Below are positions 6,084 to 24,298 of a stretch of DNA of 59,156 nucleotides, piece after piece (the first letter of the stretch is position 1; each line of letters starts with the position of its first letter). The position numbers and the translations under genes were made by a program. The notes beneath the pieces are model-generated. The model ran no database searches. It was not told the origin of the DNA and was given only the letters and a program-made list of their open reading frames with translations. This DNA comes from Propionibacteriaceae bacterium (GTDB lineage Bacteria; Actinomycetota; Actinomycetes; Propionibacteriales; Propionibacteriaceae), in assembly GCA_031271975.1 (NCBI GenBank), contig JAISUR010000026.1, forward strand, positions 1 to 59,156. Direction: 5' to 3'.

Positions 6084-6788
6084 CTAAGCGGCCCAAGCGT
6101 CGAAGACCGGATCCAGTTTGGCCCTGTGAGCGGCGTCGGTGAGCGCGCGCGCCACCACGCCAGGGCGGGCGAGCTTCAACCAGGCCGGATCCGTCTCGGC
6201 CGGATCGGCGCCCACAAGCATGGCTTGGTCGAGCACTTTTGCCGCGCCCATGATGCCGGGCAGCCGATGGCGCCCGTCGGCGAGCAACTGTTCCCGCAGC
6301 ACCGGCCCAGCGGGGTCGTCGACCCGCGTCGTCGCGCGCAGCCAGCCGCCCTGCTCGCCGCTGCGGCCCAACACGAGCGTCTCACGCAGGCAAGCGGTGG
6401 CGCCTTTGCCCAGCGTCACCGTTGTCAGGCGTTCCAGCCGCGCTCCGTCCGCGACGACCAGCGGCATTGCCTTCCAAACCAGCGCACCCGCGTTGCCCAC
6501 GGAGATCCGGGTCGTGTACGCGGCGCCAAGGCCATCGCCGGGATAGGCGACCACCCCGGCCACTTCCACGATCTCCAGCTTGGTGCGGGCGCCCACGCGG
6601 ACGGCCACCTCGATCCAGTCGCCGTCCAGCAGGATTGCCTGCGTTGGGATGAGCGCCACCGACAGCGTGCCGGGAGCCCCGTTCACCACGCGGGCGACGA
6701 AAGGGGCCACTTTGTCGGCGGCATCGTTTGCCGCGCCCGTGATGCGGAGGTGTCCGCGTTCCGCTTCCAGTTCCAACAAACGGGTCAT
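6084..6788 (-). CDS. ureD: Urease accessory protein UreD (UreH)
   Basis: Last gene of the urease operon. UreD docks on apo-urease and with UreF and UreG forms the GTP-dependent nickel-insertion complex. The product is 234 residues, short compared with proteobacterial UreD (about 270) but in keeping with the short actinobacterial forms. Family blocks include [24 protein letters not shown] and a C-terminal segment ending VFDAWAA. Its ATG overlaps the ureG stop codon in an ATGA arrangement, implying translational coupling and supporting the position of the unusual ureG stop. Confidence 0.88.
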
Positions 6789-7693
6789 GTTCGCTCCCTT
6801 TGCCGGACTTCGTCCGGAGATCCCGGAACGAGTCCGGGATGACGAGTGGAGGTGGCGTCATCCCGCTCCCTTTGCCGGACTTCGTCCGGAGATCCCGGAA
6901 CGAGTCCGGGATGACGAGTGGAGGTGGCGTCATCCCGCCCCCTTTGCCGGACTTCGTCCGGAGATCCCGGAACAGGTCCGGGATGACGTGGTGAGGTGGT
7001 AGCAGGTTGGTCGTGGGTGTGCCACGTCCCTTCTTCGGCGTGGAAATGGGGCGCCATCGGACCGGGGTCGGTCGGGGTGTGGGCGCCGGAACGTTTGGCT
7101 TGCAGCACGTATTCAACCCAGGCGGCCAGTTTCGCCACCGAGGCTGGGTCGTTCTTCGACAGGGCGATCACCGGGCGCGAATCACGGGCCGCTTCCGCGT
7201 CGGCGACCATCTGGGCGACGTCGACGCCGACGTACGGACCCAGATCCGTCTTGTTGACAACGAGCAGGTCGGCACGCGCGATACCCGGGCCTCCTTTGCG
7301 CGCCACGTCGCCACCACCGGCAACGTCCAGCACAAAGATCTGCGCGTCCACGAGGGCGGGTGAGAAGGTCGCCGTGAGGTTGTCGCCACCCGACTCCACC
7401 AACACGATGTCGGGGTTGAATTCGGCCTCCAAGTCCTCCACGACAAGCAGGTTCGCGGTGACATCGTCCCGGATGGCGGTGTGCGGGCAGGCGCCCGTCT
7501 CCACGGCTCGGATCCGTTCGGGCTCCAAGACTCCGGCGGCGCGCAGGAAACGGGCGTCTTCGTCGGTGTAGATGTCGTTGGTGACTACGGCGATGGAACG
7601 CTGGCCAGCCAAGGCCCCGCAGATCAGGGCGATCAGCGAACTCTTGCCGGTACCGACCGGCCCGGCCACCCCCAAGCGCAGCGCTGGGCTCAT
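6785..7693 (-). CDS. ureG: Urease accessory GTPase UreG with His-rich and repeat-encoded C-terminal tail
   Basis: SIMIBI-class GTPase that powers nickel delivery to urease. Residues 1-205 are a normal UreG: P-loop GPVGTGKS (11-18), the Cys-Pro-His metal site (69-71), [13 protein letters not shown], and NKTD (147-150). UreG is normally about 205 residues; this one is 302. The extra part holds a His-rich stretch ([13 protein letters not shown], 216-228) followed by three 24-residue copies starting [16 protein letters not shown] at 236, 260 and 284. These are encoded by three 72-bp copies of the genomic palindromic repeat. The stop overlaps the ureD start, so the tail is within the coupled reading frame. 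The operon has no ureE; the His-rich segment could partly replace its nickel-storage role (inference). Confidence 0.93.
6798..6990. repeat. Three in-frame 72-bp palindromic repeat copies in the ureG 3' end
   Basis: The word GCCGGACTTCGTCCGG occurs at 6802, 6874 and 6946, exactly 72 bases (24 codons) apart. Each copy holds the CCGGACTTCGTCCGG hairpin and the TCCCGGAACGAGTCCGGGAT hairpin found throughout the window. Copies one and two are nearly identical; copy three differs at a few positions. Confidence 0.95.
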
Positions 7694-7711
7694 AGTTTCC
7701 CTCCTCGCACG

Positions 7712-8410
7712 TCAGGCACTGAACAGCCTCTCCCGCGCAACAGCGTGCGCCTGCGCCCAGCCGTCGATCTGCGGGGCTGCCAGCGCCGGCATGGTTTCCG
7801 GTTCCATCACCTGGCTTGCCCGTTCGGCCATCTCCTCCACTGCCGCGAACGAGCCGAGCGCCCAATCGGAGGCCTGCAACGGGTCGAGCGGGGCGAGTTT
7901 CAAGCAGGCCGACAGGACGGTCTGCACGTCGTCGTAGCCGACCAGCCGGGCAGTCTGCCGAGCCGACAACTTCGCGGCGGCGCCGATGGCCCCCAACACG
8001 ATGGGGCGCGGCGGGCGCGGCTGCTCCGTCTCGAAATACCCGGCGACCTGTTTCCCGGCGTCGCGCAGCGCCCGGCAACCGCCCCAAAGCCGTTCCAGCA
8101 GCCGTTGATATCCGCGGCCGAGCGTTTCCTCGTTCGCCCGCACCGCCGCACTCGGCGTGCGCGAGGCCCACTCCATCCAGGTGCGCGCGATAACGGACGT
8201 CGGCTCCTCCAAACGCAGCGCCCGCACCACCAGCACGGCGGCGGCCGCGGCCTGCTCCGTGACGGTGGCCAGCCGGGCCTGCAAGAATGCCGCGACATCG
8301 TCGGTGCGCATGCCCGCGGCCAGCGCCGGTTCCAGCGAACCCGACTGTGTGTAGCCGCCGGCGGGCAGGCGCGCGTCTGCCAGCAGCATCAAGACGAGTT
8401 CGGCAGACAC
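7712..8410 (-). CDS. ureF: Urease accessory protein UreF
   Basis: Bridging protein of the UreD-UreF-UreG nickel-insertion complex. The product is 232 residues, all-helical as expected, and begins MSAELVLMLLADARLPAGGYTQSGSLE, which contains the typical UreF N-terminal LADxRLPxGGYxxSxGLE-type block. It lies between ureBC (9-base gap) and ureG (18-base gap). The order ureA-ureBC-ureF-ureG-ureD matches the mycobacterial operon. Confidence 0.9.
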   Translation of the reverse strand: MSAELVLMLLADARLPAGGYTQSGSLEPALAAGMRTDDVAAFLQARLATVTEQAAAAAVLVVRALRLEEPTSVIARTWMEWASRTPSAAVRANEETLGRGYQRLLERLWGGCRALRDAGKQVAGYFETEQPRPPRPIVLGAIGAAAKLSARQTARLVGYDDVQTVLSACLKLAPLDPLQASDWALGSFAAVEEMAERASQVMEPETMPALAAPQIDGWAQAHAVARERLFSA

Positions 8411-8419
8411 GGCAACCCC

Positions 8420-10639
8420 CTAGAACATCGTGTATAGCTGGGCCAGGGGCAGGCGTTCGGCGGGCGCGGGGGTGACAGTTTCGCCGTTGATGTCGATCCG
8501 GAAGGTAGCCGGGTCGATGTCGATCTGCGGCAGATCACTGTTGAGCTTCATCTGGGCTTTGCCGACTCCGCGCGTGTCGGCCACCGGCGCCAACTCGCGC
8601 CGCAAGCCCAGCTTCGCGGCCAATCCGTCCGCGATTGCCGCCGGCGACACGAACGAATAGGACACGTGCGGCCCACCCTCGTATCCCAGCGCCGGGCGTT
8701 GCAGCACCGGCTGGGGTGTGGGAATGGAGGCGTTGGGATCACCGAGGGCCGCATAGACCAGCGCGCCGCCCTTGATCACCACGTCCGGCCGGATGCCGAA
8801 GAACTTCGGCTGCCAAAGCACCAAGTCGGCCATCTTGCCCGGCTCGATCGAGCCGATGTAGGAGTCGATGCCGTGGGCTATCGCCGGGTTCACGGTGTAC
8901 TTGGCGACGAAGCGCTTGGCGCGCAGATTGTCCGCCGGCGTGGACGGATCCAGATCGCCGCGGCGCAGCTTCATGACGTGTGCCACCTGCCAGGTGCGGG
9001 CGATCACCTCGCCGATACGGCCCATGGCTTGTGCGTCCGAACTGGTGATGGAGATGGCGCCCATGTCGTGCAAGATGTCTTCGGCCGCGATGGTGGTGCC
9101 CCGGATGCGCGACTCGGCGAAGGCCAGATCCTCGGGCACTTTCGGATTCAAGTGGTGGCAGACAATCAGCATGTCGAGGTGTTCGGCGAGCGTGTTGACC
9201 GTGTGCGGGAGCGTCGGGTTGGTGGACCCGGGGATGACGTTCGGATGGGACACGACCTTCAGGATGTCCGGCGCATGCCCGCCGCCGGCGCCCTCGGCGT
9301 GGAAGGCGTGGATGGAGCGGCCGTTGATGGCGGCCAGCGTCGACTCCACATATCCGGCTTCGTTCAACGAGTCAGAGTGCAGCGCCACCTGCAAACCCCA
9401 GCGATCGGCCGCCGTGAGGGCCGCGTCGATGGCGGCCGGGGTAGAACCCCAGTCTTCATGCACTTTGTAGCCGCCCGCGCCGCCGAGCGCCTGTTCGGCC
9501 AGCGCCGCGGCGGAAACCGTGTTCCCTTTGCCGAGCAGCAGCAGGTTGACAGGGAGGTGGTCGAGCGAACGCAGGATGTGTGCCAGGTGCCACGGCCCGG
9601 GCGTGACGGTCGTCGCCTTGGTGCCTTCAGCCGGACCGGTGCCGCCACCCAGCACGGTCGTGATGCCCGTCCCCAATGCTTCGATGATCTGCGATTCCGA
9701 CATCAGGTGCACGTGCGAATCGACGCCGCCGGCAGTCAGGATCCGGCCTTCGCCGCTGATGACTTCGGTGCCCGCTCCGATCTCCAATTGGGGATGCACA
9801 CCATCGGCGATATCCGGGTTGCCCGCCCGCCCCAAGGCGGTGATCTTGCCGTCTTTGATGCCGACGTCGGCCTTCACGATGCCCCACCAGTCCAACACGA
9901 TGGCGTTGGTGATGACGGTGTCGAGCGCCCCCGAGGCCGCGGTGGCCGATCCCTGCGCCATGGATTCGCGCACCGACTTGCCGCCGCCGAACACGGCCTC
10001 TTCGCCGCCGACCGTGTAATCCTGCTCCACTTCGATCCAAAGGTCGGTGTCGCCGAGGCGCACCTGGTCGCCCGCCGTAGGCCCGTAGAGTGCCGCGTAG
10101 CGATCCCGGGTGACGGTCAGCGGGCTTGTCTCCGCTGGCCGGACTTCGTCCGGAGATGCCGGAACGAGTCCGGCATGACGGGTGGGGGAGTCATCGCGGA
10201 CGCCCAACGCGTCACCGCGGACCCCCGGCGCGTCGTCACGGGCCCCCAAGACGTCATCCCGGACTTGTTCCCGGGGTCCCCGCAAAGTATCGAAGAACTC
10301 TGTGGGGTGGAGTTCCGGGATCTCGGACGAAGTCCGAATCTGCAACCCAGGCACAACCTTTCGCCCACCGAGCGCGACGACCGACACCTCCCGCGTCACT
10401 CCGGGCTCGAAGCGGATCGACGTGCCCGAGGGGATGTCCAGCCGGAACCCGGCGGCCGCATCCCGGTCGAAAATGAGCGCCGAGTTGGTGTCCGGCAGGT
10501 GGAAATGCGAACCAACCTGGATCGGCCGGTCGCCGCCGTTTTCGATGACGATGGTCTTGCGCGCCCGGGAGGCGTTCAGTTCGACATTGCCCGCGGCGAT
10601 CCGGTAGGCGCCGGGGCCGGAAGTGTTCGAGCCTGCCAT
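8420..10639 (-). CDS. ureC: Urease beta-alpha subunit fusion (UreB-UreC)
   Basis: Catalytic nickel subunit of urease (urea to ammonia and carbamate) fused to the beta subunit in one 739-residue ORF. Residues 1-102 are UreB ([34 protein letters not shown]); about 174-739 are UreC. Nickel and catalytic residues are intact: His309 and His311 (DSHVHL), Lys392 (YKVHEDWG, the carbamylated lysine), the HSDSLNEAG and [12 protein letters not shown] histidines, CHHLNP, and the SSDAQAMG aspartate. Residues 103-173 are a linker encoded by palindromic repeats. I see no stop and no ATG or GTG near the natural UreC start ([14 protein letters not shown]), so separate UreC synthesis is not evident. The ATG at 10639 lies one base after the ureA stop; a TTG at 10651 is less likely. 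Confidence 0.92.
10127..10345. repeat. Palindromic repeat modules inside ureBC (encoding the UreB-UreC linker)
   Basis: Contains the CCGGACTTCGTCCGG and GATGCCGGAACGAGTCCGGC hairpins near 10138-10180, degenerate GTCATC-type units to about 10250, CGTCATCCCGGACTTGTTCC (10251-10270), the second module (GGGGTCCCCGCAAAGTATCG, near 10274) and a CGGACGAAGTCCG hairpin at its end. All are read in frame as part of the fusion protein. Confidence 0.9.
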
Positions 10640-10640
10640 G

Positions 10641-10946
10641 TCATGCCCCAATCGGTTCGTGGATGGTGACGAGCTTGCGCCCGTCCGGGAAGGTCGCCTC
10701 CACCTGGATGTCGGGCAGCATCTCGGCCACGCCCGTCATGACGTCGGCCGCGGTCAGCACGGACCGCCCTGCCTCCATCAACTCGGCGACAGACTTGCCC
10801 TCGCGGGCCCTTTCGATGACCCAGGTAGTGAGCACGGCCACCGCCTCGGGGTAGTTCAACTTGACTCCGCGCGCCTTGCGGTCGCGGGCAACCATGCCCG
10901 CAACGGAGAGCAACAGCTTCTCCTGATCAGCCAAAGTCAGGTGCAT
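10641..10946 (-). CDS. ureA: Urease gamma subunit UreA
   Basis: Small structural subunit of urease, 101 residues and full length for the family. The ATG at 10946 ([20 protein letters not shown]) is chosen over an upstream in-frame start because an AAGGAG site sits six bases before it and because it matches the usual UreA N-terminus. Conserved blocks include [16 protein letters not shown] and [18 protein letters not shown]. First gene of the operon. The 232-base divergent gap to the next gene must hold its promoter; a GTTGAAA followed by TAGGCAT near 11005-11025 on this strand is only a weak candidate. Confidence 0.95.
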
Positions 10947-11116
10947 TGGGACTCCTTGTCGTCCAGTGTGGCGATCACCAGTCAACAGGGCCCGGATGAA
11001 TGCCTAGTAAACGCCGGGTTTCAACCGCGTTTCGAGGCCCTGTTTTCACCAACTCTCAAGCTTTCAGGGAGACTTGAGCTTTTCTCTCAGCATCCTTTCA
11101 GGTCCGGATGACTAGC

Positions 11117-11122
11117 CATTAT
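11117..11122 (+). promoter_or_regulatory. Weak candidate -10 (CATTAT) for the secreted FN3-EEP gene
   Basis: CATTAT lies 57 bases before the ATG at 11179. Upstream, a small inverted repeat (CTCAAG at 11055-11060, CTTGAG at 11073-11078) could be an operator or a weak hairpin. No clear -35. The ribosome-binding stretch before the ATG (GGGGGAT) is poor. Confidence 0.28.
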
Positions 11123-11178
11123 GGTCAATTCACACGAGCCCTTGCAGGGGAAGGCAAGGGGTTTGGGGGATACAGATA

Positions 11179-13356
11179 ATGTCATCTGTCAGAGCAGCGC
11201 TTTGCCTGTTGCTGGTAGCGGTATTTGGTTTGCCGCTGGCCACGCCGGCCGCGTCAGCCGCGACATACACGCACGCCACACCAGCCGCTCCAACGGCCGT
11301 CAGCGTCAGCCGCAGTTCCGTAGATTTGTCATGGAAGGCCGTCGCAGACGCGCCCAAGTACCGGATTCAGTATTCGACGTCGTCGTCGATGTCGAATCCC
11401 ACGTATATCCGGGTCAGCGGCACCCGCTACGAACTGACCGGACTGAAGGCGTCGACGACGTACTACTTCAAGGTGCGCGTCATCGACGAGGAGGGCGTGA
11501 ACCTCTCGGCGTATTCCAAGGCGCTGAAGGTGAAGACATCGTCCAAGTCCGGCTACACCCATCTCTCGCCCACGGGGCTCACAGTCACTGGCACCGGCCC
11601 GACGGCTGTGGCTCTGCAATGGAATTCGCGCGGGGACGGCATTCGCTACCGCGTCCAGTATTCGACGAGTTCTTCCATGGCCAACGCCAAATACAAGCGC
11701 GTCACCGGAACTTCCACCACCATCAGCGGCTTGACGTTGAACAAGACCTACTATTTCAAGGTCCGCGTAATCACAAACTCCGGCTCAAATCTCTCCTCGT
11801 ATTCCCCCAAAGTATCCGCCAAAACCGGCTATTCCTTCAGCGCACCGAAGGGCTTGAAAGTCTCCGATTCCAGCCAGACCCAGGCCTTGATGTCGTGGAC
11901 GGAATCCGCCGGCGCCGAACGCTACCGGATCCAGGTCGGCACCTCAGCGTCCATGGCAAACCCGGTCTACTACCGCTATTCGGGCAAGTCGGCGATCGTG
12001 CCGGGCCTGAAGGCGGGCAAGTCGTACTGGTTCAAGATCCGCGTCATCACGCCGGACGGCGAAAACCTCAGCCCCTACTCGTCGGCGGTCAAGCTGACCA
12101 CGCCCACCGCAGCGGACCGCAAGTACCTGGCGCCGACCGGGCTGACCGCGAAAGCCGCCAAGCCGGGCCACCTGACCACGAGCTGGACGTCTTCCGGCTC
12201 AGGGCTGTATTACCAAGTGCGCTATTCACAGAACTCGAACATGTCCGAGTCGAAGACCGTCACCACTACGTCCACCAGCGCCGAGTTGAAGAACTTGGCC
12301 GACGAGACGCAGTACTACTTGCAGTTGCGCATCGTGACGTCCAAGAACGTGGCGCAGAGCCCATATGGCACGACGGCGACCGTGACGACCGCGAAGGAAG
12401 TGAACACGCCGCTGGTCGTCGCCTCGTACAACATTCGCTGCTTCAACTGCTACGAGGGCAAGACGAACGAACGCACCTGGTATGACCGGCGCGACACAGT
12501 CGTGGCTTTGGTGAAGGCGCAGGCCCCGGACGTGATCGGCTTCCAGGAGGCCGCCCAGTCGTGGCTGACCGAGAACGGCAAGAAGGTCTCACTGAGCCAA
12601 TTCGAGGACCTCATCAACCGGCTCGGCAGTCCATACAAGCTGGTGAATACCGCCCGCAACAACTGCGTGAAGTCGACGACACCGACCGGCTGCGTCTACA
12701 AGGACCAAGGCGCTTCCAAGGGCACGAAGATCGTCTACAACTCGGACAAACTGACGTTGGTGGCCGAAGGCTCCAAGCAGCTCTCCTACATTTCCACCAA
12801 AGACAACGAGCGCTACGTCGCCTGGGCGATCTTCGAGCAGAAGGCTTCCGGCAAGTACTTCTTCTTCGCGGACACCCACCTGGAGCACGCCAGCGGCACC
12901 AGCTACTACAACCTGCGCAAGAAGCAGACCGAAGAGATCATGGCCGAGATCGCCAAGCAGAACACGGACGACCTGCCGACGTTCCTGGTGGGCGACTTCA
13001 ATTCGCACAAGACCACCTCGCCCAGCAACGCCCCTTACGACGTGGTGCTCAAGAACGGCCTGATCGATCCGCTGGGGAACTACTACAAGTCGACCACGTC
13101 GGTGAACCCGGATGTGCTTTCCAAGCGGATCCGCACCAACTACAACTCGTACAACAGTTGGGCGCTGAGCCCGCCGAAGTCGTCCACGAACGTGAACGGC
13201 AGCTACTTGGACTACATGTTCGTGGATCCGCGCATCCGCACCACCGAGTGGGAAACCGTCCTGGACCTGGACTCCGCCGGCAAGTGGGTGGGCATCATCC
13301 CGTCCGACCACAACATGCTGCGCATGGTCACGTACTTGCCAACCGCCGAAGGGTAG
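11179..13356 (+). CDS. Secreted fibronectin type III / endonuclease-exonuclease-phosphatase (EEP) protein
   Basis: Predicted secreted phosphoesterase or nuclease of 725 residues. A signal peptide (1-28, ending ATPAASAA) is followed by four FN3 domains (about 35-125, 130-220, 225-315, 320-405) that share the pattern YRIQYSTSSSMSNPTY...TYYFKVRVI. The C-terminal EEP domain (412-721) has IGFQEA (metal-binding Glu), ADTHLEH (His), VGDFNSH (Asp, Asn) and PSDHNML (Asp-His). The family includes DNase I, exonuclease III and sphingomyelinases; extracellular DNA or phospholipid headgroups are plausible substrates but not proven. No sorting motif is seen, so release into the medium is likely. It converges on a paralogue (13409-14875). 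Confidence 0.88.
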   Translation: MSSVRAALCLLLVAVFGLPLATPAASAATYTHATPAAPTAVSVSRSSVDLSWKAVADAPKYRIQYSTSSSMSNPTYIRVSGTRYELTGLKASTTYYFKVRVIDEEGVNLSAYSKALKVKTSSKSGYTHLSPTGLTVTGTGPTAVALQWNSRGDGIRYRVQYSTSSSMANAKYKRVTGTSTTISGLTLNKTYYFKVRVITNSGSNLSSYSPKVSAKTGYSFSAPKGLKVSDSSQTQALMSWTESAGAERYRIQVGTSASMANPVYYRYSGKSAIVPGLKAGKSYWFKIRVITPDGENLSPYSSAVKLTTPTAADRKYLAPTGLTAKAAKPGHLTTSWTSSGSGLYYQVRYSQNSNMSESKTVTTTSTSAELKNLADETQYYLQLRIVTSKNVAQSPYGTTATVTTAKEVNTPLVVASYNIRCFNCYEGKTNERTWYDRRDTVVALVKAQAPDVIGFQEAAQSWLTENGKKVSLSQFEDLINRLGSPYKLVNTARNNCVKSTTPTGCVYKDQGASKGTKIVYNSDKLTLVAEGSKQLSYISTKDNERYVAWAIFEQKASGKYFFFADTHLEHASGTSYYNLRKKQTEEIMAEIAKQNTDDLPTFLVGDFNSHKTTSPSNAPYDVVLKNGLIDPLGNYYKSTTSVNPDVLSKRIRTNYNSYNSWALSPPKSSTNVNGSYLDYMFVDPRIRTTEWETVLDLDSAGKWVGIIPSDHNMLRMVTYLPTAEG

Positions 13357-13361
13357 TAGCC

Positions 13362-13400
13362 ACGTCATCCCGGGCCCGTCCCGGATCTCGGACGGATGAG
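13362..13400. repeat. Short degenerate palindromic repeat between convergent EEP genes
   Basis: CGTCATCCCGGGCCCGTCCC followed by GGATCTCGGACGGATGAGG is a degenerate copy of the window-wide repeat. It occupies the 52-base gap between the two stop codons, where a transcription terminator would be expected, and its GC-rich hairpin may serve that role. Confidence 0.6.
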
Positions 13401-13408
13401 GAATGCCG

Positions 13409-14875
13409 CTACGGCAGCAGGACGGTCGCGCGGAGCATGTTGTGATCCGAGGGGATCGTGCCCACGAAGCGGCCCTTGGAATTGACCTTGACTACCGTCT
13501 CCCATTCGAGGACCCGCATCGGCGTGACCATGATGTAGTCGATGTACGTGCCGTACTTGGGCGGGTTGCGGGAGTAGCGGTTGTAGCTGGAGTAGTTGGC
13601 GTGGATCTTCTTCTCCGGCTCGGCCACACCCGGGTCAGAGGATTGGCCGATCGGATCGAGGAAGGCATCTGTGAAGACGTAGTACGCGGCGTTGGAGCCG
13701 GACTTGCGCGGATACGTGTTGAAGTCGCCAACCATGAATGTGGGCAACTCACCGCCGTAGCGCGCGTTTATCGCCTTGAGTGTGGCGACGCATTCTTTGG
13801 CTTGCCGGGCGCGGCGGTTGGCCATCGCCTTGCCGCCGTTCGGTTCTAGGTGCGCGGATCCGAAAAGGAACAGCTTGCCTGTGGACTTCTGCTCGAACAC
13901 GGCCCAAGCTAGGCGCCGGTCGGACTTGCCCGATTCGAGCTTCTCAGTACCCTCTTCGACAACCTTGACCGTGTCGGAGTTGTAGATGATGCCGTCCGTC
14001 GCACCCGAGATGCGTTGCTTCGTCCCCTTGTACGCGCCGCCGACAAGGTTGATCAGTTGGTCGAACTGTCTGATAGAGCGGGCCTGGGAAGCCTCTTGAA
14101 TGCCCACCACATCTGGCATCTGGCCCTTGATGGTGGCGGCGACGGCGGCCTTGCGGCTCTTCCACGACTTTCCGCCACAACGCACACATTTGACGTTGTA
14201 GGTGCCGACCACCAACGGGACGTTGTCCACAACCTCGCCGTCCACGACGAGCGACCATTCGCTGGCGGGCTTGCCTTCGGCGTCCACCACGCGGGCCTGG
14301 GCATAATACGTGCCCGCTTCCAAGTCCTCGAAGGTGATCTTCGTCTTCTCGATCACCTGGACGGTCTCTTGCAAAGCATCCTTGTCGGGGCCGAACGCCA
14401 GCTCGTAGGCCAGCACCTCATCGGAATCGGCGGCATCCCATTTCAGGGTGGCTTTCATGGCGATGGAGGTGTCCAGCTTCACGACGGGAGCCGCCAGCGT
14501 GTAGACCGGCGCCCCAGTCGTGAACGCCACTGGCTCGGTGGGCTCGGAGATGTCGCCCTCTTCGGCGGAGCGGAGCCGCACGTAGTACGTCGTTTCGGGA
14601 TCCAAGTCGGAGATGGCCACCTTGTCTTCGGCGGCCGGGATGCGCTGTGCGGAGGCGAAATTCTCATCCGGGGCGACTTCCACCACGAAGTCGGCGTTGG
14701 CGGGGGCTTCCCAGGTGACCAAGGCCGACGTGTTGCGGGTGTTGACGGCGATGTTGCTGGGGGAAACCGGTTCGAAGACGGAAGGAACTGCGGAGGCTGT
14801 TGCGAGGGGTCCCAAAGCTAGGACGAAGACGGCGGTTAGACCTCTCCTGATCCACGTTACGTGGCAGTCCCGCAT
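13409..14875 (-). CDS. Secreted FN3 / EEP phosphoesterase, paralogue of the 11179 gene
   Basis: A 488-residue secreted protein with a signal peptide (ending ATASA, about 1-29), two FN3-like domains (about 36-130 and 132-225) and a C-terminal EEP domain (about 228-486). The catalytic blocks match the convergent neighbour: GTYNVKCVRC, VGIQEAS, GSAHLEPNGG, VGDFNTYP and PSDHNML. The start is supported by a CAGGAGG site 5 bases upstream. The two proteins differ in FN3 number but end almost identically, pointing to a local duplication with inversion. Substrate unknown. Confidence 0.87.
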   Translation of the reverse strand: MRDCHVTWIRRGLTAVFVLALGPLATASAVPSVFEPVSPSNIAVNTRNTSALVTWEAPANADFVVEVAPDENFASAQRIPAAEDKVAISDLDPETTYYVRLRSAEEGDISEPTEPVAFTTGAPVYTLAAPVVKLDTSIAMKATLKWDAADSDEVLAYELAFGPDKDALQETVQVIEKTKITFEDLEAGTYYAQARVVDAEGKPASEWSLVVDGEVVDNVPLVVGTYNVKCVRCGGKSWKSRKAAVAATIKGQMPDVVGIQEASQARSIRQFDQLINLVGGAYKGTKQRISGATDGIIYNSDTVKVVEEGTEKLESGKSDRRLAWAVFEQKSTGKLFLFGSAHLEPNGGKAMANRRARQAKECVATLKAINARYGGELPTFMVGDFNTYPRKSGSNAAYYVFTDAFLDPIGQSSDPGVAEPEKKIHANYSSYNRYSRNPPKYGTYIDYIMVTPMRVLEWETVVKVNSKGRFVGTIPSDHNMLRATVLLP

Positions 14876-16414: not shown

Positions 16415-18889
16415 TTGGCCAAAATCGGCATTAAGAAGCTCATCCAACGCGCCCCGGGCTTCCTGGCGCGCTCCGAGATCCCGGCAGTGCGTTGGGCGTA
16501 TTTCACCGGCCGCAAGGTGGCGCGCGGTGCGGTGCATTTGGTCTCCCCACTCCAACCGGGCTGGATATCGCACCTGGTCGACGTTTCCTGGACTGGTCCC
16601 ACCACACTCGAAATCTACGGGTGGGCGTACGAACGCGGCGTGCCGCTGACGAAAACGCCGCAAGTTGAAGTGGCGTTGCACGCGCACGGCAAGCGCGCCG
16701 TGGCCGGGCAGGTGACCATGGTCAACGAGCCACGGGCCAACGCGGCACCCAAAGTGGCCGACTACGACCTGTCGGTGACTGGTTTCCGGGCGGAATTCGA
16801 CGTGACTGGGCTTCCGGTAGGGCGCTGGTGGGTCCACATCAAGGTGCGTTCAGACCACTCCACCGGTACAGGCACGTTCTTGCGCCGCATGGGACTCGGC
16901 TCGGCCTTCAACCCGCAGAGCCGCCTCGTCGGCGACCGGGTGATCACGCCGGGTTGGCACATCCGGGCAGGTCTGACGCTGCGAGTGCGCAAACCGAAGG
17001 TATTGGCCACGCAAGCCGTGATCGATGGCCGCGAATTGCGCGTGGCGTGCCGCGAGGGCGAGCCGCTCATTTCCTTGGACACCGGTGGCAGCGTTGTCCC
17101 GAAGCTGCGGCCAGGCACACATCTCTCGCAACCGGACGACGATGGTTTCGACGAATCCAATTCCGTAACGCTGCCCGGCGATTGGCTGCCCATGTCCACA
17201 TATCGGGTGTTGGCTACGGATTCTTCGGACAAGACCCGGCCCGTAAGCGCCGCCCAAACCCAGTTCGGCGTCCCAGAACGCCTTCCTTTCCTTTACGCCG
17301 GATACGACGCCACCCTGCGCGTGCTCGACGCCCAAGCGCTCGTCGTGGTGACCGAAACGGAAGTGGTGGAAAGCCCGGAGCTCGGCGTGCGGATCGCTGG
17401 CAAAGTTCTCGGCGCCGTCGATGGCTTGAACCTGCGGCTCGTGGGTCCCCGCGCGACACGGTCCGTGACGGCCGACGTTGGCGACGACGGCTCCTTCACC
17501 GCATTCGGCTCCTGGCTCGCGCCCGAATGGGGACGCCCGGCCCGGCCGCCGCTGCCCGGCATCTACACGCTCCAAGCCGGCGACGCCAGCGGCGCCAACG
17601 TCTACGTGATGGCCAGCGACGAAATCACGTCCCGCGGCGCCGTCATGTATTACGGCGCCGAGATCAAGTGCCGCCTCGGAGTCTTCGCTGGCCGACGCCT
17701 GGCCTACCGCGTCCTCAAACCCACGAGAGACGACGAACTGGGCGGCTTCAACCAGTCCCGTCTGCAACGCGAGTACACCAGCGGGAAACCCGCTTTGCGG
17801 GACACTTTCTTCTTCGAGTCTTTCTACGGCACCCAGGCCACATGCAACCCGTATGGTTTGGACCGCGACATCGCAACCCGCTTCCCGGACATCCCCCGCT
17901 ATTGGGGGATCGCGGACGCCTCCGTCGCCGTCCCAGAAGGCGCCATTCCAGTGATCGAAGGCACCGTCGAGTGGTGGGAAGCGCGGCAGCGATCCCGCTA
18001 CGTGGTCGCAAACGACTGGCTGCGCGGCAAGTTCGAACGCATGCCCGGCCAGCGCGTCCTGCAGACCTGGCACGGCTCGATGCTGAAACGCATCGGTTTG
18101 GACCGCATCGACGCGGACATCATCTACCGGCGGCAGTTGCTGGCTGAGACGAAGCGCTGGAGTTTCCTGCTGTCGCAAAACCCGGACGCCACGAAAGTCT
18201 GGCATTCGGCGTACGCGTGGACGGGCGAGATCTGGGAGGAGGGCTATCCCCGCAACGACGCCCTCTTCAACGAATCCGGTGAGCCGATCCGGGAGTTGCT
18301 GGGCATCCAGCCCGGCCAAAAGGCGATCCTGTACGCGCCGACGTGGCGCGAAGGCACGGAGGAAGTCGTGCTCACCTTGGACGCGGCCCGCCTGGCCAAA
18401 GACCTCGGCGACGAGTATGTCGTGCTGCTGCGCAGCCACGCCCGCACCATGAAGTTCGGCGAAGCCGTGCGTGTGCCCGGCGTGATCGACGTGACGACGT
18501 ACCCCAACATCACCGACCTGTTCTTAGCCGCCGACGCCCTGATCACGGACTACTCGTCAGTCATGTTCGACTACTCGAACACCCGCCGCCCGATGATCTT
18601 CTTCGTGCCCGACATGGACCAATACCGCGACTCGGAGCGCGGGGTCTACTTCGACCTGTCCGAGCTGGCCCCGGGCCCCGTGCTGGCCACCCACGAGGAA
18701 GTTCTCGCGGCCGTGCGCGCCATGGAGAAAGACGAGCCGCAATACGCGGCCAAGTACGACGCCTGGCGAGCCCGCTTCAACCCGTGGGACGACGGCCACG
18801 TGGCCCAACGGATAAACGACCGGCTACTGGAAAACACCGCACATAGTTCTCCGCTGCGCCCCGATACTTTGCGGGGACCCCAGGGTTAG
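16415..18889 (+). CDS. CDP-glycerol glycerophosphotransferase family protein (TagB/TagF-like)
   Basis: Polymerises or primes poly(glycerol phosphate)-type teichoic acid from CDP-glycerol at the inner face of the membrane. The TTG start is chosen because an AGGAGG site lies six bases upstream. Of 824 residues, about 1-420 form beta-rich segments common in actinobacterial members; about 440-810 are the catalytic domain, with QTWHGSMLKRIG, EGYPRNDALF, ILYAPTWREG and LITDYSSVMFDYSNTRRPMIFF. The last 14 residues (SSPLRPDTLRGPQG) and the stop codon are encoded by the genomic repeat module carrying GATACTTTGCGGGGACCC, so the original C-terminus has probably been replaced. Confidence 0.9.
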   Translation: MAKIGIKKLIQRAPGFLARSEIPAVRWAYFTGRKVARGAVHLVSPLQPGWISHLVDVSWTGPTTLEIYGWAYERGVPLTKTPQVEVALHAHGKRAVAGQVTMVNEPRANAAPKVADYDLSVTGFRAEFDVTGLPVGRWWVHIKVRSDHSTGTGTFLRRMGLGSAFNPQSRLVGDRVITPGWHIRAGLTLRVRKPKVLATQAVIDGRELRVACREGEPLISLDTGGSVVPKLRPGTHLSQPDDDGFDESNSVTLPGDWLPMSTYRVLATDSSDKTRPVSAAQTQFGVPERLPFLYAGYDATLRVLDAQALVVVTETEVVESPELGVRIAGKVLGAVDGLNLRLVGPRATRSVTADVGDDGSFTAFGSWLAPEWGRPARPPLPGIYTLQAGDASGANVYVMASDEITSRGAVMYYGAEIKCRLGVFAGRRLAYRVLKPTRDDELGGFNQSRLQREYTSGKPALRDTFFFESFYGTQATCNPYGLDRDIATRFPDIPRYWGIADASVAVPEGAIPVIEGTVEWWEARQRSRYVVANDWLRGKFERMPGQRVLQTWHGSMLKRIGLDRIDADIIYRRQLLAETKRWSFLLSQNPDATKVWHSAYAWTGEIWEEGYPRNDALFNESGEPIRELLGIQPGQKAILYAPTWREGTEEVVLTLDAARLAKDLGDEYVVLLRSHARTMKFGEAVRVPGVIDVTTYPNITDLFLAADALITDYSSVMFDYSNTRRPMIFFVPDMDQYRDSERGVYFDLSELAPGPVLATHEEVLAAVRAMEKDEPQYAAKYDAWRARFNPWDDGHVAQRINDRLLENTAHSSPLRPDTLRGPQG

Positions 18890-19051
18890 GCTGAACCCCA
18901 CCACGTCATCCCGGACTCGTTCCGGGATCAACCCCACCACGTCATCCCGGACTCGTTCCGGGATCTCGGACGTAGTCGGTGGGCCCGACTGGGCACCCCT
19001 GGCGGGGTACATGGGACTTTGTCCCAAGATCCCGGACCAAGTCCGGGAGGA
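18858..19051. repeat. Palindromic repeat cluster overlapping the end of the glycerophosphotransferase gene
   Basis: Starts within the gene with the CGATACTTTGCGGGGACCCC module, then two GTCATCCCGGACTCGTTCCG copies 36 bases apart (18905, 18941), then a full composite unit to 19051 with the GGGACTTTGTCCC and GATCCCGGACCAAGTCCGGG arms. It occupies the 179-base gap between convergent genes. Confidence 0.88.
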
Positions 19052-19068
19052 CGGCCCAGAGGGAACTG

Positions 19069-20202
19069 TCACACGAAGGGGCTGTCGTAGGTCGGGATCC
19101 GGCCGAGCTGCGGAAGGGTGATGCCGTCAAAGCTCATGGAATCCGCGGCGGCTGCCGCCCTCATGTCGTTGATGCTGGCTTCCATCAGCTCGTACAGGGT
19201 CAAGATGCCGCTGATGACAGTGGTACAAGCCGCGATCTCGGCGGCCGCTGCGATGAGGCCCGCCAGCAATCCCCAACCCGTCCACGAAGTGGAGGCGGCG
19301 GCCGCGAGGGTGATGCCCAGGGCGATCAGCAAGTCGAGCAGCGCCACCATTTGGCTGGCCACCGCCTGAGCGTGCTGGTACATACCGGTGGCGACGTTTT
19401 CGAATTGGGCCTTCAAGTCGATCAGTGGTGCGGGCATGTCGTCGATGGTGTCGATCGCACGGTTGAAGTTGGAGTTCATGGCGGCGGCGGAGTTGCCCTG
19501 CCAGCTTCCCAGCACGCTCGCCTTGGCATTGCTGAGTTGCACTCCAAGCCGCTCATGGTAGTCGGCCAGGTGGCCCAGGGCGTCGCCACCGACCGCGGCC
19601 TTGTTCCAGTCGCCGGCCAGCTTCTCGTACACCCAGTCCAACGGGTTGGGAATGCCGAGCACTTCCATCGCCCCGAGAACGTAGGTGCTGGGGCTCACGA
19701 AACCGGCGGCGCAATCGATGATCAAGTCCACCAGATTTGGTATTGGCTCGGAAGCTGAAGGCGTGGTCAACGCGGAAGCGGGATCCCCCGAATACGAATG
19801 CGTGGGCCGGGTGTGGTACGGATTGTAGTTTGGCATCGAATTGTCGTAGTGGCCAGCCTCATGGCCGCCGGGCAGATTCGGATAATAGGTGCTGTCGGAA
19901 ACTGCAGCGTCCAACGCGTCTGCCGTCGAGGCGTCTGCCTGTACGTAGTAGTTTCGCAGGTTGGCCAGTTCCGTCCCGGCTGTCGACAGGTACGTGGCGA
20001 CGCGGTCATCGAAGGCTTGGATCTTCCCGCCGACGCTCGCGGCGATGCCGGCGAATTGCTGGAAGAGCGACCCCGTCGAGGATCCGGCGTCGGAAACATA
20101 ACTGGTGTAGGCGCTGGCTGCGCCGGCGGAAGTGGCAAAGCCGGAGATCGTCGTCGCAAATGCGGCTAGGTCTTCGGAATTCCAGGCGAAATCGGGAGCC
20201 AT
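19069..20202 (-). CDS. WXG100/EspB-like protein, probable type VII secretion substrate
   Basis: A 377-residue helical protein. It lacks a signal peptide. Residues 1-105 form a helical WXG100-like stretch with repeated Ala/Ser/Phe heptads; about 200-290 form a second helical hairpin with a WQG motif (SVLGSWQGNSAAAMNSNF), the WxG turn of ESX substrates; about 295-345 are hydrophobic (ALGITLAAAASTSWTGWGLLAGLIAAAAE). A Gly/Pro/Tyr-rich linker (about 105-165) separates the halves. No EccC, EccD or small Esx partner lies nearby, so the secretion machinery must be elsewhere. It could be a toxin-like effector without a visible toxin domain. Monocistronic. Confidence 0.65.
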   Translation of the reverse strand: MAPDFAWNSEDLAAFATTISGFATSAGAASAYTSYVSDAGSSTGSLFQQFAGIAASVGGKIQAFDDRVATYLSTAGTELANLRNYYVQADASTADALDAAVSDSTYYPNLPGGHEAGHYDNSMPNYNPYHTRPTHSYSGDPASALTTPSASEPIPNLVDLIIDCAAGFVSPSTYVLGAMEVLGIPNPLDWVYEKLAGDWNKAAVGGDALGHLADYHERLGVQLSNAKASVLGSWQGNSAAAMNSNFNRAIDTIDDMPAPLIDLKAQFENVATGMYQHAQAVASQMVALLDLLIALGITLAAAASTSWTGWGLLAGLIAAAAEIAACTTVISGILTLYELMEASINDMRAAAAADSMSFDGITLPQLGRIPTYDSPFV

Positions 20203-20317
20203 GATTCAATCCTTGTCAGTAGATCGGGTACTTGACGTCAGGGTAACTAAGGATCGAAAACCGCGCCATGGGACTTGGTTCCCATGGACGGCGACAAAGT
20301 TCTCCGCTGCGCTGGCA

Positions 20318-20328
20318 TACTTTTCGTC
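20318..20328 (+). promoter_or_regulatory. Leaderless promoter: TACTTT, 5 bases before ATG
   Basis: TACTTT at 20318-20323 (or CATACT at 20316-20321) is followed by the ATG at 20329 with no Shine-Dalgarno. This supports 20329 over upstream TTG (20275) and ATG (20284) starts. Confidence 0.45.
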
Positions 20329-21948
20329 ATGCAGGAACAGGTGAAAGACATCGCCAGGGCCGTCCAGACCAAGTTTGCCCAGCGGCCGGCCTTGCGGCAC
20401 GATCCGATTCCGCCCGAACAGCCCTATCCGGACGCGCAGTATGTCTTCCTCGTGGGCGCGGTGCCGCGCAAGTACGCGGGCCGCACCGCTTCAATCCTGC
20501 ACAAGACGCGGCTTTGGTACGAGCATTACGGCATCGAATCGCTGATCGTGCCGGCCGTGCCCACACCCGAAATGGACGACTTGGAGCATCATTTCCGCGA
20601 AACCGGCGCACTGGCGGACGGCGTGCGCATCAAGCCGCTGCTGGATTTCTATCCGGACGACACCGTGGGCACGCCGGTGTTGCACGAATTGGAGGAACCG
20701 GGCCTGCGCTGGCTGAAGGAAGAATCCCAGCCGGTGTACCGCTTCTACGACGACATGGGCGTCTACCGCGTCTACAAGCGGCTCGACTACGCTGGGCGGC
20801 TCATCGTGAAGGACTATTTCGGCGAGAATCGCATCCGCACCCGTCGCGACGAATTCCGCACGGATGGCACGCTGCGGCGCTCGGCGTTCATGGATCCGCA
20901 ACTCAACGAGCCGCGCCAGGAGATTTTGTACGCGCACGACGGCACCCCGCAATATGCCCGCTGGACGCTTTACGACCAGGACGACTATCAACTCCATACC
21001 CAGCGCATCGTGTTTTTCGGGCCGGATGGCGCTCCGGTGCGCGAAGAGTTCAAGTACGACCCGATCATCCACACCTGCCTGGATCAGATCGTCGGCGACA
21101 AGCTGACTTTCATCACCTGCGAAGACCGCAAGGCGGATCGGGAGTTTCTCACCTACGCAAATCCCAACGTCCGCAAACTGGTTGTCTACCACAACACCCA
21201 CATCAAAGAGCCCTACACCGACATCCACTCTTTCCGGCCGATGTTCATGCCGCTGCTGTCCAACCCGAAGAAAGTGGACGCCGAAGTGTTCTTGACTGAG
21301 AGCCAGCGGGCTGACGTTGAAGCCCACTTCGGCAAGAACGAGAAATTCCGCGTCATCCCGCACACGGTCCACGATCCGGTGCTCGCCGAAGGTGTCGAAA
21401 GGGATCCAAACCTGGTGATCATGATGGCCCGCCTCCACCCGCAAAAACACGTCGAGCACGCGATCGAAGCGTTCAAATATGTCGTCAAAGCCAAGCCGCA
21501 GGCCCGCCTGGAAATCTACGGCCGCGGCGACCAGAAGCTCTACTTGGAGTCTGTCATCCGACGCATGGGCGTGGGTGACTCGGTCAAACTCATGGGCTTC
21601 ACCGACAATCCGAGCTTGGTCTATCAGCGGGCGAGTGTTTGCATCCTGACCAGCCGCTACGAAGGCCAGTCGCTGACTGTCCTGGAAGCTCTGATGCATT
21701 CCTGCCCGATGGTCTCCTACGACTTGCGGTACGGCCCGTCGGAGTTCATCCAGGATGGCGTGAATGGCTTCTTGGTGCCGAATCGCTCCATTCGGGCGCT
21801 GGCGAAACGTGTCGTCCAAATCCTCGACGACAAAGCGTTACGCGACAGGATGGTAGCTAATGCGCGCCCGTCGGTGGAGAAGTTCGACACCGCCACATTC
21901 CTGCGGCGCTGGGGCGGACTGTTGAACGAGTTGGCCGGAAAGAAGTAG
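20329..21948 (+). CDS. GT4 glycosyltransferase, teichoic-acid glucosyltransferase (TagE/TarM)-like
   Basis: Retaining glycosyltransferase of about 539 residues with a GT-B fold. The N-terminal half resembles the poly(glycerol-phosphate) alpha-glucosyltransferase family (LDYAGRLIVKDYFGENRIRTRRDEF, VVYHNTHIKEPYTD). The C-terminal GT4 domain shows VIMMARLHPQKHVEHAIEAF, LEIYGRGDQKLYLE, VKLMGFTDNPSLVYQRASVCILTSRYEGQSLTVLEAL (the Glu-x7-Glu sugar-nucleotide site) and NGFLVPNRSI. Role: decoration of the glycerol-phosphate polymer made by the neighbouring enzymes (inference from family and context). It is followed after four bases by the LicD gene, so the two are co-transcribed. Confidence 0.85.
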   Translation: MQEQVKDIARAVQTKFAQRPALRHDPIPPEQPYPDAQYVFLVGAVPRKYAGRTASILHKTRLWYEHYGIESLIVPAVPTPEMDDLEHHFRETGALADGVRIKPLLDFYPDDTVGTPVLHELEEPGLRWLKEESQPVYRFYDDMGVYRVYKRLDYAGRLIVKDYFGENRIRTRRDEFRTDGTLRRSAFMDPQLNEPRQEILYAHDGTPQYARWTLYDQDDYQLHTQRIVFFGPDGAPVREEFKYDPIIHTCLDQIVGDKLTFITCEDRKADREFLTYANPNVRKLVVYHNTHIKEPYTDIHSFRPMFMPLLSNPKKVDAEVFLTESQRADVEAHFGKNEKFRVIPHTVHDPVLAEGVERDPNLVIMMARLHPQKHVEHAIEAFKYVVKAKPQARLEIYGRGDQKLYLESVIRRMGVGDSVKLMGFTDNPSLVYQRASVCILTSRYEGQSLTVLEALMHSCPMVSYDLRYGPSEFIQDGVNGFLVPNRSIRALAKRVVQILDDKALRDRMVANARPSVEKFDTATFLRRWGGLLNELAGKK

Positions 21949-21952
21949 CCCC

Positions 21953-24298
21953 ATGAATCGAGCGGCGGAGCTGTGTGAAGCCATCGAACGGATTTGGTGT
22001 GATCCGGGCGACGCCGCGGCGGCGGACCTGGTCAGGGCCATAGTTGGAGGTGCGCTGAGACTTCGTGCCGAGTCTCCCAGCTGGGACCGCACTTCGTGCG
22101 AGATCCCGGAACAAGTCCGGGATGACGATCGAGGGAGTCAGGACAACGGAGTCCGGTTGGGTGCTGGCAGGGACCACACTTCCTGGGAGATCCCGGAACG
22201 AGTCCGGGATGGCGAGGGCACCGCGGAGCCGCCAACCGCATCCACCGCCGCGATCTGGCGCTACTACCTGTTGCACACCAACCAGTGGCGCGAAGAAGTG
22301 GGCGTCGCCGGCATGCGCCGGGCCCTGAATGCCGTCAACGCCTGTTTCGCCGCCAAGACCGACGAAGAAGCCTTGGCCCGCTTCGAGCAGACGTTGGCCG
22401 TGTTGGGCGACCAGCCGGATTACCCATACGACAGGCCCTGCCGAACCGAGGGCCCCATAACCATCCCCGACGCGGACTGGGCCGCGCTGACCGACATCCA
22501 TCCCGACTCCGCCCACCGCCATGCCGACACCCCCCACCGTCATGCCGACACCCCCCACCGTCATCCCGGACTTGTTCCGGGATCTCGGACGAAGTCCGAT
22601 CCGAACCAATCAACCCAGCCCGACTCCGCCCAACCGGACTCCGTCCGGAGATGCCGGAACGAGTCCGGCATGACGGGTGAGAGGGGGAGATGCGCAAACC
22701 AGCCCAGCATGACGGGCGAGAAGGAGACACGCGCAAACCAGCCCAGCATGACGGGCGAGAGGCCCAGCATGACGGGCGAGGGATTGGCCGAGCTGACGAC
22801 GTGGCTCACCTCCAACTCCATCGTCTACACGCTGGCCGAGCAAACCCTGGAGGCCGCCTTGCTGTACGGCGGCCCGCCACCTTGGGAGATCGCCCAGGCC
22901 ATCGCCGTCCCGCGGGCCGACTTCGACAAGCTCGCCAAGCTCACATTGCCCAAGGGTTGGAAGCTGCAACACGTCGGCGCCGGATCGTGGAAGCGGCCCG
23001 TCGCCCGTGCCAGCATCGGCAAGGAGCACGTAGACATCGTGGTGCTGGAATCCAGCCACGAGGGGGCGGCCAAGCTCAAGGGCTTGCCCGTGCGCCTGCG
23101 CGATTCCCAACTGCAAGTCGCCAAGACGCGCTACCGCCGGATGCAAGGCACGAAGCTGTTGCGGGCGTTGGCCAGCCGCCAACCAGGTGCCGTCTACGCC
23201 CAGGTACGCAAGGCCTTGGAACAAGCCCCTGGCAAGGCGGAATACCTGGTCGGAGCCGGTTTGCCCGGTAACTTGGCCGCGGTCAGCTTCCCGTCCGAGT
23301 GGCTGGCACCGGTGCCCGCGACCTACGCCGGGACGGATGTTTTCATCCCCGCCGAGGCCGAGAAAGTGCTGGAGCAGCGCGGGTTGGGGGGTCAGGATGA
23401 CGATGAAGGGGGTCGGGACGACGGTCGAGGGGGTCAGGACGACAACGCTCCCGCGGCCAGTCCACGCAAACGGGACCGCTTTGGGCTGATCCGCGTGAAG
23501 TACGGTTCGGCCGAGTGGTACCAACTGCAACAGCAGGTGCTGGCCGCGTTGCTCGATTTCGATGCGCTCTGCGCGGAGCACGGCCTGACTTACTACCTGC
23601 TGGGCGGCTCGCTGCTGGGCGCGGTGCGGCACGGCGGCTTCATCCCGTGGGACGACGACATGGACGTTTCGATGCCGCGGGCCGACTTCGACAGGCTGAT
23701 CGAGATCATGGGTGACCAGGAGCAGCACCATCTCAGGCTCTTCTGGAACACCACCTGGCCGAAGTACTACATGGTGTTCGCCAAGATGGTAACCACGCGC
23801 GACTCGGAGTTTTCCAGTTACCGCAACCCGTTGCCGCGCCACTTCTCGAAGCCGTACGTGGACGTGTTCCCCCTGGATCCGGGACCGGCCAAAGAGCCGG
23901 ACCAGCTCGTCCAGAAACGCCGCATGTACCGCGACGCCCTCTTCTTCAAGAAGCGCGTGATGGTGGCCAGCCGCAAGCGGGCCAAATGGAAGCGCTGGCT
24001 GGTCTCCTGCGTCCTGCCGCACAAGGTGTTGCAGCAAGGCTTCGACAAGCTTGCCCGGATGTATGCCAACGATCCGAAAGCCGACCGTTTGGTGAACTTC
24101 GCCTCCACGTATCTGCCGCGCCGCGAGACTTTCCCCCCCGAGGCCTACGGCACACCGCGCCGCGTCCTGTTCGAAGGGCACCTGGTGCCGATTCCGCAGG
24201 ATGCCGACAAAGTGCTCCGGATCGTCTTCGGCGACTACCTGCGGCTACCGCCGCCCGAACAGCGCAAACCGCTGCACTTGCCGCACTTGGCCGAGTGA
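21953..24298 (+). CDS. LicD-family phosphotransferase with a degenerate second LicD domain and in-frame repeats
   Basis: Members of this family transfer phosphocholine or similar phospho-groups onto wall polymers. The 781-residue protein has an active-looking C-terminal LicD domain (about 533-780) with LLGGSLLGAVRHGGFIPWDD, DMDVSMPRADFDRL and VDVFPLDPG. The middle region (about 290-475) repeats the same plan in degraded form: GGPPPWEIAQAIAVPRADFDKL lacks the catalytic Asp cluster, followed by VDIVVLES and a matching C-terminal block (FPSEWLAPVPATYAGTDVFIPAEAEKVL against FPPEAYGTPRRVLFEGHLVPIPQDADKVL). Repeat-derived segments interrupt the N-terminal helical region at about residues 40-90 and 183-281. 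An Asp/Gly-rich linker at 478-500 joins the two halves. Confidence 0.85.
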   Translation: MNRAAELCEAIERIWCDPGDAAAADLVRAIVGGALRLRAESPSWDRTSCEIPEQVRDDDRGSQDNGVRLGAGRDHTSWEIPERVRDGEGTAEPPTASTAAIWRYYLLHTNQWREEVGVAGMRRALNAVNACFAAKTDEEALARFEQTLAVLGDQPDYPYDRPCRTEGPITIPDADWAALTDIHPDSAHRHADTPHRHADTPHRHPGLVPGSRTKSDPNQSTQPDSAQPDSVRRCRNESGMTGERGRCANQPSMTGEKETRANQPSMTGERPSMTGEGLAELTTWLTSNSIVYTLAEQTLEAALLYGGPPPWEIAQAIAVPRADFDKLAKLTLPKGWKLQHVGAGSWKRPVARASIGKEHVDIVVLESSHEGAAKLKGLPVRLRDSQLQVAKTRYRRMQGTKLLRALASRQPGAVYAQVRKALEQAPGKAEYLVGAGLPGNLAAVSFPSEWLAPVPATYAGTDVFIPAEAEKVLEQRGLGGQDDDEGGRDDGRGGQDDNAPAASPRKRDRFGLIRVKYGSAEWYQLQQQVLAALLDFDALCAEHGLTYYLLGGSLLGAVRHGGFIPWDDDMDVSMPRADFDRLIEIMGDQEQHHLRLFWNTTWPKYYMVFAKMVTTRDSEFSSYRNPLPRHFSKPYVDVFPLDPGPAKEPDQLVQKRRMYRDALFFKKRVMVASRKRAKWKRWLVSCVLPHKVLQQGFDKLARMYANDPKADRLVNFASTYLPRRETFPPEAYGTPRRVLFEGHLVPIPQDADKVLRIVFGDYLRLPPPEQRKPLHLPHLAE
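22073..22212. repeat. In-frame palindromic repeats, first cluster in the LicD gene
   Basis: Two units, each a stem (CCGCACTTCGTGCGAGATC or CACACTTCCTGGGAGATC) joined to GATCCCGGAACAAGTCCGGG or a close variant. They are read as EIPEQVRDD and EIPERVRDG within the protein. Confidence 0.9.
22500..22790. repeat. In-frame palindromic and tandem repeats, second cluster in the LicD gene
   Basis: CGTCATCCCGGACTTGTTCC with a CGGACGAAGTCCG arm (22559-22600), a CCGGACTCCGTCCGG / CCGGAACGAGTCCGGCATGA unit (22633-22675), preceded by an ACCGTCATGCCGACACCCCC tandem and followed by three or four short repeats around CCCAGCATGACGGGCGAG. All are in frame and encode about 100 residues. Confidence 0.9.

Follow-up and report, generated by a model that had tools for sequence, protein, structure and literature searches.

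Short palindromic repeats lie in frame inside several genes of the DNA studied here. The explanation that fits best, and that we consider very probable, is a CGTC-tagged REP that occupies mostly intergenic DNA, with a tolerated in-frame minority in genes. The window, meaning the whole stretch of 59,156 nucleotides that was analyzed, is one entire contig (C33) of a 2.70-Mb Propionibacteriaceae genome that is 99.86% complete. An earlier note on this DNA had claimed translated repeats in five ORFs (three copies in UreG, the linker of a UreB-UreC fusion, two clusters in a LicD protein, and the ends of a glycerophosphotransferase and of TrxB), and had read the element as a protein-remodeling repeat outside Rickettsiales that acts like Rickettsia palindromic elements. 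Palindromic repeats that are in frame, and would be translated, are confirmed in all five ORFs, each of which is open. The likeness to the Rickettsia elements also holds, as in-frame palindromes at linkers and termini outside Rickettsiales. The interpretation as a whole is partly supported: its remodeling part is overstated in view of the mostly intergenic copies described below.

The repeat unit and its class

The unit has a consensus close to CGTCATSCCGGACTYGTTCCGGSATC, with an 8-bp stem and a 5-nt loop, and its hairpin reads CGTC-ATSCCGGA-CTYGT-TCCGGSAT or a close variant. Stem, loop and stem are ATCCCGGA, CTTGT and TCCGGGAT, the dimensions of CGTC REP family 2, and the 3-nt tail that follows is CTC or CTT. 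The CGTC tag stands at one end: the profile consensus opens with CGTCATCC, and the tag is seen again in 21 aligned dimers. A second hairpin, of the type TTGGGACGAAGTCCCA or CTCGGACGAAGTCCGA, mostly comes after the first. Two facing copies often form a 114-bp composite unit, with the CGTC ends outward and a structured spacer between them; the aligned dimers, of 112-119 bp, were taken from 35 tag-outside pairs. One full-length composite unit with outward CGTC ends is intergenic in the window at 4878-4991. Among 195 nearly full copies, the pairs no more than 150 bp apart comprise 35 HH (tag outside), 9 TT and 54 HT (head-to-tail), so HT is the commonest orientation (54 of 98 close pairs) and HH exceeds TT. 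A 29-base pattern, searched with up to three mismatches, has 242 matches in the genome and none for the reversed control; the copy number is far above chance.

By sequence, the repeat fits a CGTC-tagged REP (stem 8, loop 5) and would extend a known kind of element, the translated CGTC REP, to an actinobacterium. As described by Di Nocera, De Gregorio and Rocco (2013, PMC3733652), the CGTC superfamily includes Neisseria dRS3 and Rickettsia RPE-4 and RPE-6. Members carry an unpaired CGTC (or TGTC, CCTC) at one end, a stem of 8-9 bp beginning with AT, a loop of 4-5 nt and a 3-nt tail that is mostly CCA. In that description HH dimers predominate, TT are rare and HT negligible, while the copies are mostly intergenic and near 3' ends, with an intragenic minority and no dedicated transposase. 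The hosts it gives for CGTC REPs are Proteobacteria, Chlorobi, Bacteroidetes, Spirochaetes and Thermotogae, and it reports intragenic GTAG and CGTC REPs in several species, with DnaE2 among the host proteins.

The present repeat agrees with this account in the tag, the AT-starting 8-bp stem, the 5-nt loop and the tag-outside dimers with structured spacers. It agrees as well in lying near the 3' ends of genes and between convergent genes, in its intragenic minority, and in DnaE2 as a host. It differs from the account in PMC3733652 in its actinobacterial host, in a tail of CTC or CTT rather than CCA, and in its many head-to-tail copies and clusters. The tail lowers but does not exclude membership of the class, because PMC3733652 says that most tails, not all, fit CCA. 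Like RPE-4 and RPE-6, which PMC3733652 places in the CGTC class, the repeat is found in frame within the ORFs of proteins that are intact by sequence; those elements belong to a different host phylum, and the class link comes from the description in that paper, not from sequence. Neisseria dRS3 is likewise of the CGTC class and, according to PMC3733652, forms large clusters, but it belongs to the CGTC-1 family with a 4-nt loop, a comparison made by description only. Such behavior outside Rickettsiales is not new, because PMC3733652 already reports REPs of both the GTAG and the CGTC type inside genes of several species and treats RPE-4 and RPE-6 as CGTC elements.

Distribution in the genome

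Copies were counted with a repeat profile on a genome sample of 60 stretches plus the window (1,254,174 bases), in which a simple codon-model finder called 1067 genes covering 91.4% of the sample. The profile finds 247 copies, of which 225 are intergenic and 22 overlap a called gene by at least 15 bases. Grouping the copies into islands gives 85 between genes, 10 within genes and 11 at gene ends (106 in all, a count that excludes six repeat islands without the motif). The median distance of copies is 31 bp to 3' gene ends versus 88 bp to 5' ends. Among gaps of at least 20 bp, 32 of 76 convergent ones hold a copy, compared with 60 of 514 others (unidirectional 45/381, divergent 15/133). In four related genomes, sampled as 60 stretches, 103 of 109 copies are intergenic. 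These counts show a palindrome that is mostly extragenic, with a minority of copies in genes. It is on this point that the earlier reading goes too far, while its placing of the element outside Rickettsiales stands.

The window is not typical, because it holds 7 of the 10 islands that lie wholly inside genes and genic copies are the exception (22/247). It also has repeat clusters between genes at 18895-19054 (after the glycerophosphotransferase gene), 32036-32305, 35145-35395 (with a 38-bp tandem array), 41357-41627, 46749-46967 (with a 34-bp tandem array) and 56953-57040.

A UreB-UreC reading frame joined by repeat DNA

The fused ureB-ureC ORF (8420-10651, minus strand) is open over 743 residues; the UreC of relatives has about 566. 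Its linker of about 70 residues (10124-10333, minus strand) consists of in-frame repeat copies of mixed modules, which occupy residues 105-172; the frame analysis described below numbers this protein from a start four codons later. The Urease_beta match covers residues 13-107 and Urease_alpha 179-298, so the repeat overlaps only the last three residues of Urease_beta. Among 93 other loci that carry both genes, some of which may be one genome under two names, just one (Cellulomonas timonensis) has them fused in one ORF, and its linker is unrelated.

From the end of UreB (residue 107) to residue 197, the only in-frame ATG, GTG or TTG codons are TTGs inside the linker (123, 135 and 149). None of the three codons occurs between residue 149 and residue 197, which is already past the conserved beginning of UreC; a CTG is in frame at residue 178. 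Because of this gap, a UreC made from any usual start carries repeat-coded residues or is joined to UreB. Judged from these codons, UreC can hardly escape either a repeat-coded head or complete fusion. The predicted structure of UreBC has a mean pLDDT of 52.7, and the linker, at about 26-36 in most blocks, is without secondary structure; the prediction decides nothing, because parts of UreC score as low as the linker and the whole model is poor. A putative UreB-UreC fusion built by repeats, in which the usual UreC start codons are lost, is new.

Repeat-coded tails and the LicD protein

The ureG gene (6785-7693, minus strand), whose stop overlaps the start of the next ORF (6084-6788), has a repeat-coded tail. 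Three tandem 72-bp units (6792-7007, minus strand), each made of first hairpin, second hairpin and spacer, form residues 236-298 in frame and give a 14-residue repeat peptide three times, one copy being a variant. The ORF has no stop ahead of the units, and the cobW match (8-176) is clear of them. In UreG relatives (12 loci given, 11 aligned), short and mostly His-rich tails are found at the site of the units.

The glycerophosphotransferase gene (16415-18889, plus strand) ends in a partial copy of the GGGGTCCCCGCAAAGTATCG module (repeat family D12) at 18845-18889. This tail shares DTLRGP with the UreBC linker, and the Glyphos_transf domain (458-805) is outside the repeat. TrxB ends in TRTTSEI, coded by the second-hairpin module at 56664-56699 (plus strand). 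Its repeat-coded tail is residues 309-319, outside the Pyr_redox_2 match (5-294), and matches to orthologues in the genus stop at residues 305-313. The alignment of host proteins with relatives that the earlier note had proposed does find insertion points that differ in length or sequence, as in the UreG and TrxB tails.

The LicD-family ORF (21953-24298, plus strand) contains two clusters. Cluster 1 (22085-22216, plus strand) has two antisense copies in the EIPEQVRDD frame, and cluster 2 (22508-22768, plus strand) has one sense and one antisense copy with tandem arrays of periods 21, 15 and 39. The repeats are at residues 45-87 and 203-241, the LicD domain (540-760) lies outside them, and the ORF carries RHPGLVPGS. 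The coding signal is confined to one frame between and after the clusters: frame +0 scores 17.6 between them, 39.0 after them and 54.2 in the LicD domain, with 4.4, 8.6 and 10.9 for the next-best frame. Ahead of cluster 1 the coding signal is unclear, at 2.0 versus 2.3 for the best alternative frame. In 29 other genomes of the genus the N-terminal half has no match, matches being limited to residues 507-775, and for this reason the claim that it is coding rests on codon usage.

Copies in genes outside the window

The DnaE2 copy lies inside the HHH_6 match (841-957), at a linker of varying length among 10 aligned relatives, several of them distant paralogues; the closest relative (G013) has a longer, unrelated insert at the repeat site. 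In the GT87 protein, all 11 aligned orthologues are without five residues at the repeat (+5 here). Part of the repeat peptide there coincides with ancestral sequence, since 10 of the 11 have LVPG or AVPG at this place. The acyl-ligase copy is inside the AMP-binding match (22-395), at a place where the lengths of relatives differ. Seven acyl-ligase relatives were given and six aligned; five have no REP, four of these being shorter and one (G021) about equal in length.

The acyl-ligase of genome G018, the sixth that aligned, has two REP-derived segments in the same linker, in the orientation opposite to that of the copy here. We read the REPs of the two species as independent insertions into one tolerant linker. 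Two species with oppositely oriented REPs in the same acyl-ligase linker are also new.

The claim that host domains stay intact, with insertions at linkers or termini, holds for the five hosts in the window, apart from the three-residue overlap with Urease_beta, and is qualified by the DnaE2 and acyl-ligase copies inside Pfam matches.

Reading frames and array periods

The earlier note had observed that repeat peptides arise in different frames and orientations, and they do; it had taken this as a tolerance of the element for translation in more than one frame. In the 1.25-Mb sample there is no excess of frames without stops over dinucleotide shuffles. Of six frames, 4.63 are open on average in 115 long intergenic copies, 4.61 in the shuffles and 4.85 in random genomic 43-mers. 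Multi-frame openness as an adaptation is accordingly rejected, shuffled sequence being equally open by composition alone, and in GC-rich genomes such openness should not be counted as an indication that DNA is coding.

Of 11 gene-frame pairs, 7 use the RHPGLVPGS frame (UreG, UreBC, LicD, DnaE2, GT87, lactonase and acyl-ligase), two the EIPEQVRDD frame and two a third frame. Against an expectation of one fifth, the binomial p is 0.002, for a preference that was noticed and chosen after seeing the data. The 11 pairs represent 15 of the 22 genic copies. The seven omitted (C16:2469, C16:152019, C16:175852, C46:1156, C41:74281, C7:31253 and C7:46706) supply or contain a stop, have a doubtful start or score weakly; at C16:2469 and C16:175852 the stop codon of the gene seems to come from the repeat. 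The preference depends on this omission, which was likewise decided with the data in view. One copy that was kept, C31:57375, may precede the true start of its gene. As a rule the frame preference is rejected: in relatives (G167, G168 and G009), none of six genic matches is in the RHPGLVPGS frame, two of the six having four mismatches and being probably due to chance.

In three genes of the window, the tandem-array periods are 72, 21, 21, 15 and 39, each a multiple of three. The lactonase has the sixth in-gene array, of period 19, which looks like self-similarity within one unit. Periods divisible by three make up 5 of 6 in genes versus 14 of 53 between genes (Fisher p 0.011), where the five come from three genes, all in the window, and some intergenic entries overlap and describe a single array. 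The periods fit selection that would keep host ORFs open, in a few genes.

Comparison of explanations

We propose that a CGTC REP multiplied in this lineage in two forms, tandem arrays and dimers whose tags point outward around a structured spacer, and that most copies came to rest between genes, shortly after the end of one. A minor fraction of the insertions would have struck coding sequence or run into it; where these preserved the frame in a variable linker or at a protein end, they may have been tolerated and translated as extra peptide, the rest being purged. Purging would explain the rarity of genic copies, and it is from this rarity that we infer it. The genic copies that are seen look like survivors of selection, with open frames in variable linkers and tails, and the host proteins are presumably made and working. 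At the ureB-ureC junction, insertions would have done away with the stop of ureB and the native start of ureC, leaving one beta-alpha chain or a UreC begun from a TTG within the repeat.

A stronger role is conceivable, in which the repeat is kept since its translated linker is useful and is tuned for several frames. The post hoc preference for RHPGLVPGS and the landing of insertions in linkers and tails speak for it, but so few copies overlap genes, the open frames so closely equal those of shuffled sequence, and the preference is so absent from related genomes that we think it improbable. We also see little likelihood that the read-through is an annotation artefact, with genes ending before the repeat or starting after it. 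This may well be the case for some copies at gene ends, such as the two stop suppliers and the doubtful starts at C41:74281 and C31:57375. It does not suit a UreC with a single CTG as its only candidate start between residues 149 and 197, a UreG that reaches its three units without a stop, or the DnaE2, GT87 and acyl-ligase genes, whose relatives can be aligned before and after the repeat without a change of frame.

Least probable are REPINs, that is, GTAG-type REPs moved by a REP-associated tyrosine transposase (RAYT). The resemblance is in the similar size, short palindromes, dimers, high copy number and intergenic location; the tag here is CGTC, not GTAG. For the mobilizer, Y1_Tnp (PF01797) was the sole transposase family searched, and it has no match in the genome itself, on which ground we reject RAYT-driven REPINs; nor has it any in G009, with 29 copies of the repeat. 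The family is present in 14 of 30 genomes of the genus, 11 of them without a repeat match. Compared with all these, the mostly intergenic CGTC REP remains our preferred explanation. It is a rather doubtful extension of it that REPs repeatedly build the same kind of linker, with the Pro/Gly-rich RHPGLVPGS frame selected, share recurrent landing sites across species (the acyl-ligase in G000 and G018, DnaE2 here and in PMC3733652) and create working fusions in bursts, such as a UreB-UreC chain.

Significance and occurrence in the family

The actinobacterial host is another new point, extending translated CGTC REPs to Actinomycetota; otherwise the analysis confirms known REP behavior. Literature searches of open-licence papers found no earlier report of an actinobacterial CGTC REP, and searches there for the repeat DNA and peptide strings gave no relevant paper. 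A 2025 survey (PMC12306157) includes three Actinomycetota genomes in its REP table and does not appear to name the CGTC class for them. Two clean test cases result: genes fused through repeat DNA, and a linker struck in two species.

With one mismatch allowed, the hairpin is present in 15 of 198 genomes of the family, including the one studied here. Those with more than 20 copies are this genome (G000, 173), G167 (71), G208 (61), G168 (59), G009 (29) and G018 (23). Among the matches listed, the loop is mostly CTYGT in this genome and mostly CTYGA in the others.

Repeat-derived segments in host genes

The acyl-ligase orthologue in the related genome G018 (L241, G018:C404) contains two internal segments derived from the palindromic repeat, at about 1384-1494 on the coding strand; these lie in the same linker as the copy in our own genome (G000), but in reversed orientation and from a different repeat variant. 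The closest DnaE2 orthologue (L212, in the related genome G013) carries in the same linker as our DnaE2 gene a 70-residue insert (2206-2415, minus strand) that is unrelated to the repeat. In the GT87 gene (L223, G000:C46:17389-18960), the CTCGTTCCGGGATCT of the repeat is found at the position of CTGGTCCCGGGCGTC in the relative L226, hinting that short sequence similarity was used for the insertion.

Where a repeat is antisense at the 3' end of a host gene, it appears to be the source of that gene's TGA stop. Examples are G000:C16:2469 and C16:175852 in our own genome, and the loci L252 and L254 in the related genome G167.

Within the window, a further module, GGGGTCCCCGCAAAGTATCGAAGAACT, is present alongside the palindromic repeats at 10251-10336, 18841-18889 and 41579-41627, and encodes DTLRGP in two proteins, within the UreBC linker and within the glycerophosphotransferase tail. 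Immediately ahead of the LicD domain is a low-complexity GGQDDDEGGRDDGRGGQDDN stretch (23378-23467) that looks like a decayed repeat or linker; scanning it with the repeat profile gave no match.

Origin of the urease cluster

For the urease cluster (window 6084-10946), only one of the 29 other same-genus genomes, G005, yields urease matches; among the named hits, a Bifidobacteriaceae MAG (L115) has the highest segment identity, 82%. Judging from these sequence matches, horizontal transfer may have brought in the cluster, with the repeats entering it later. In Cellulomonas timonensis (L112), ureB and ureC are also fused; the linker there bears no relation to the repeat.
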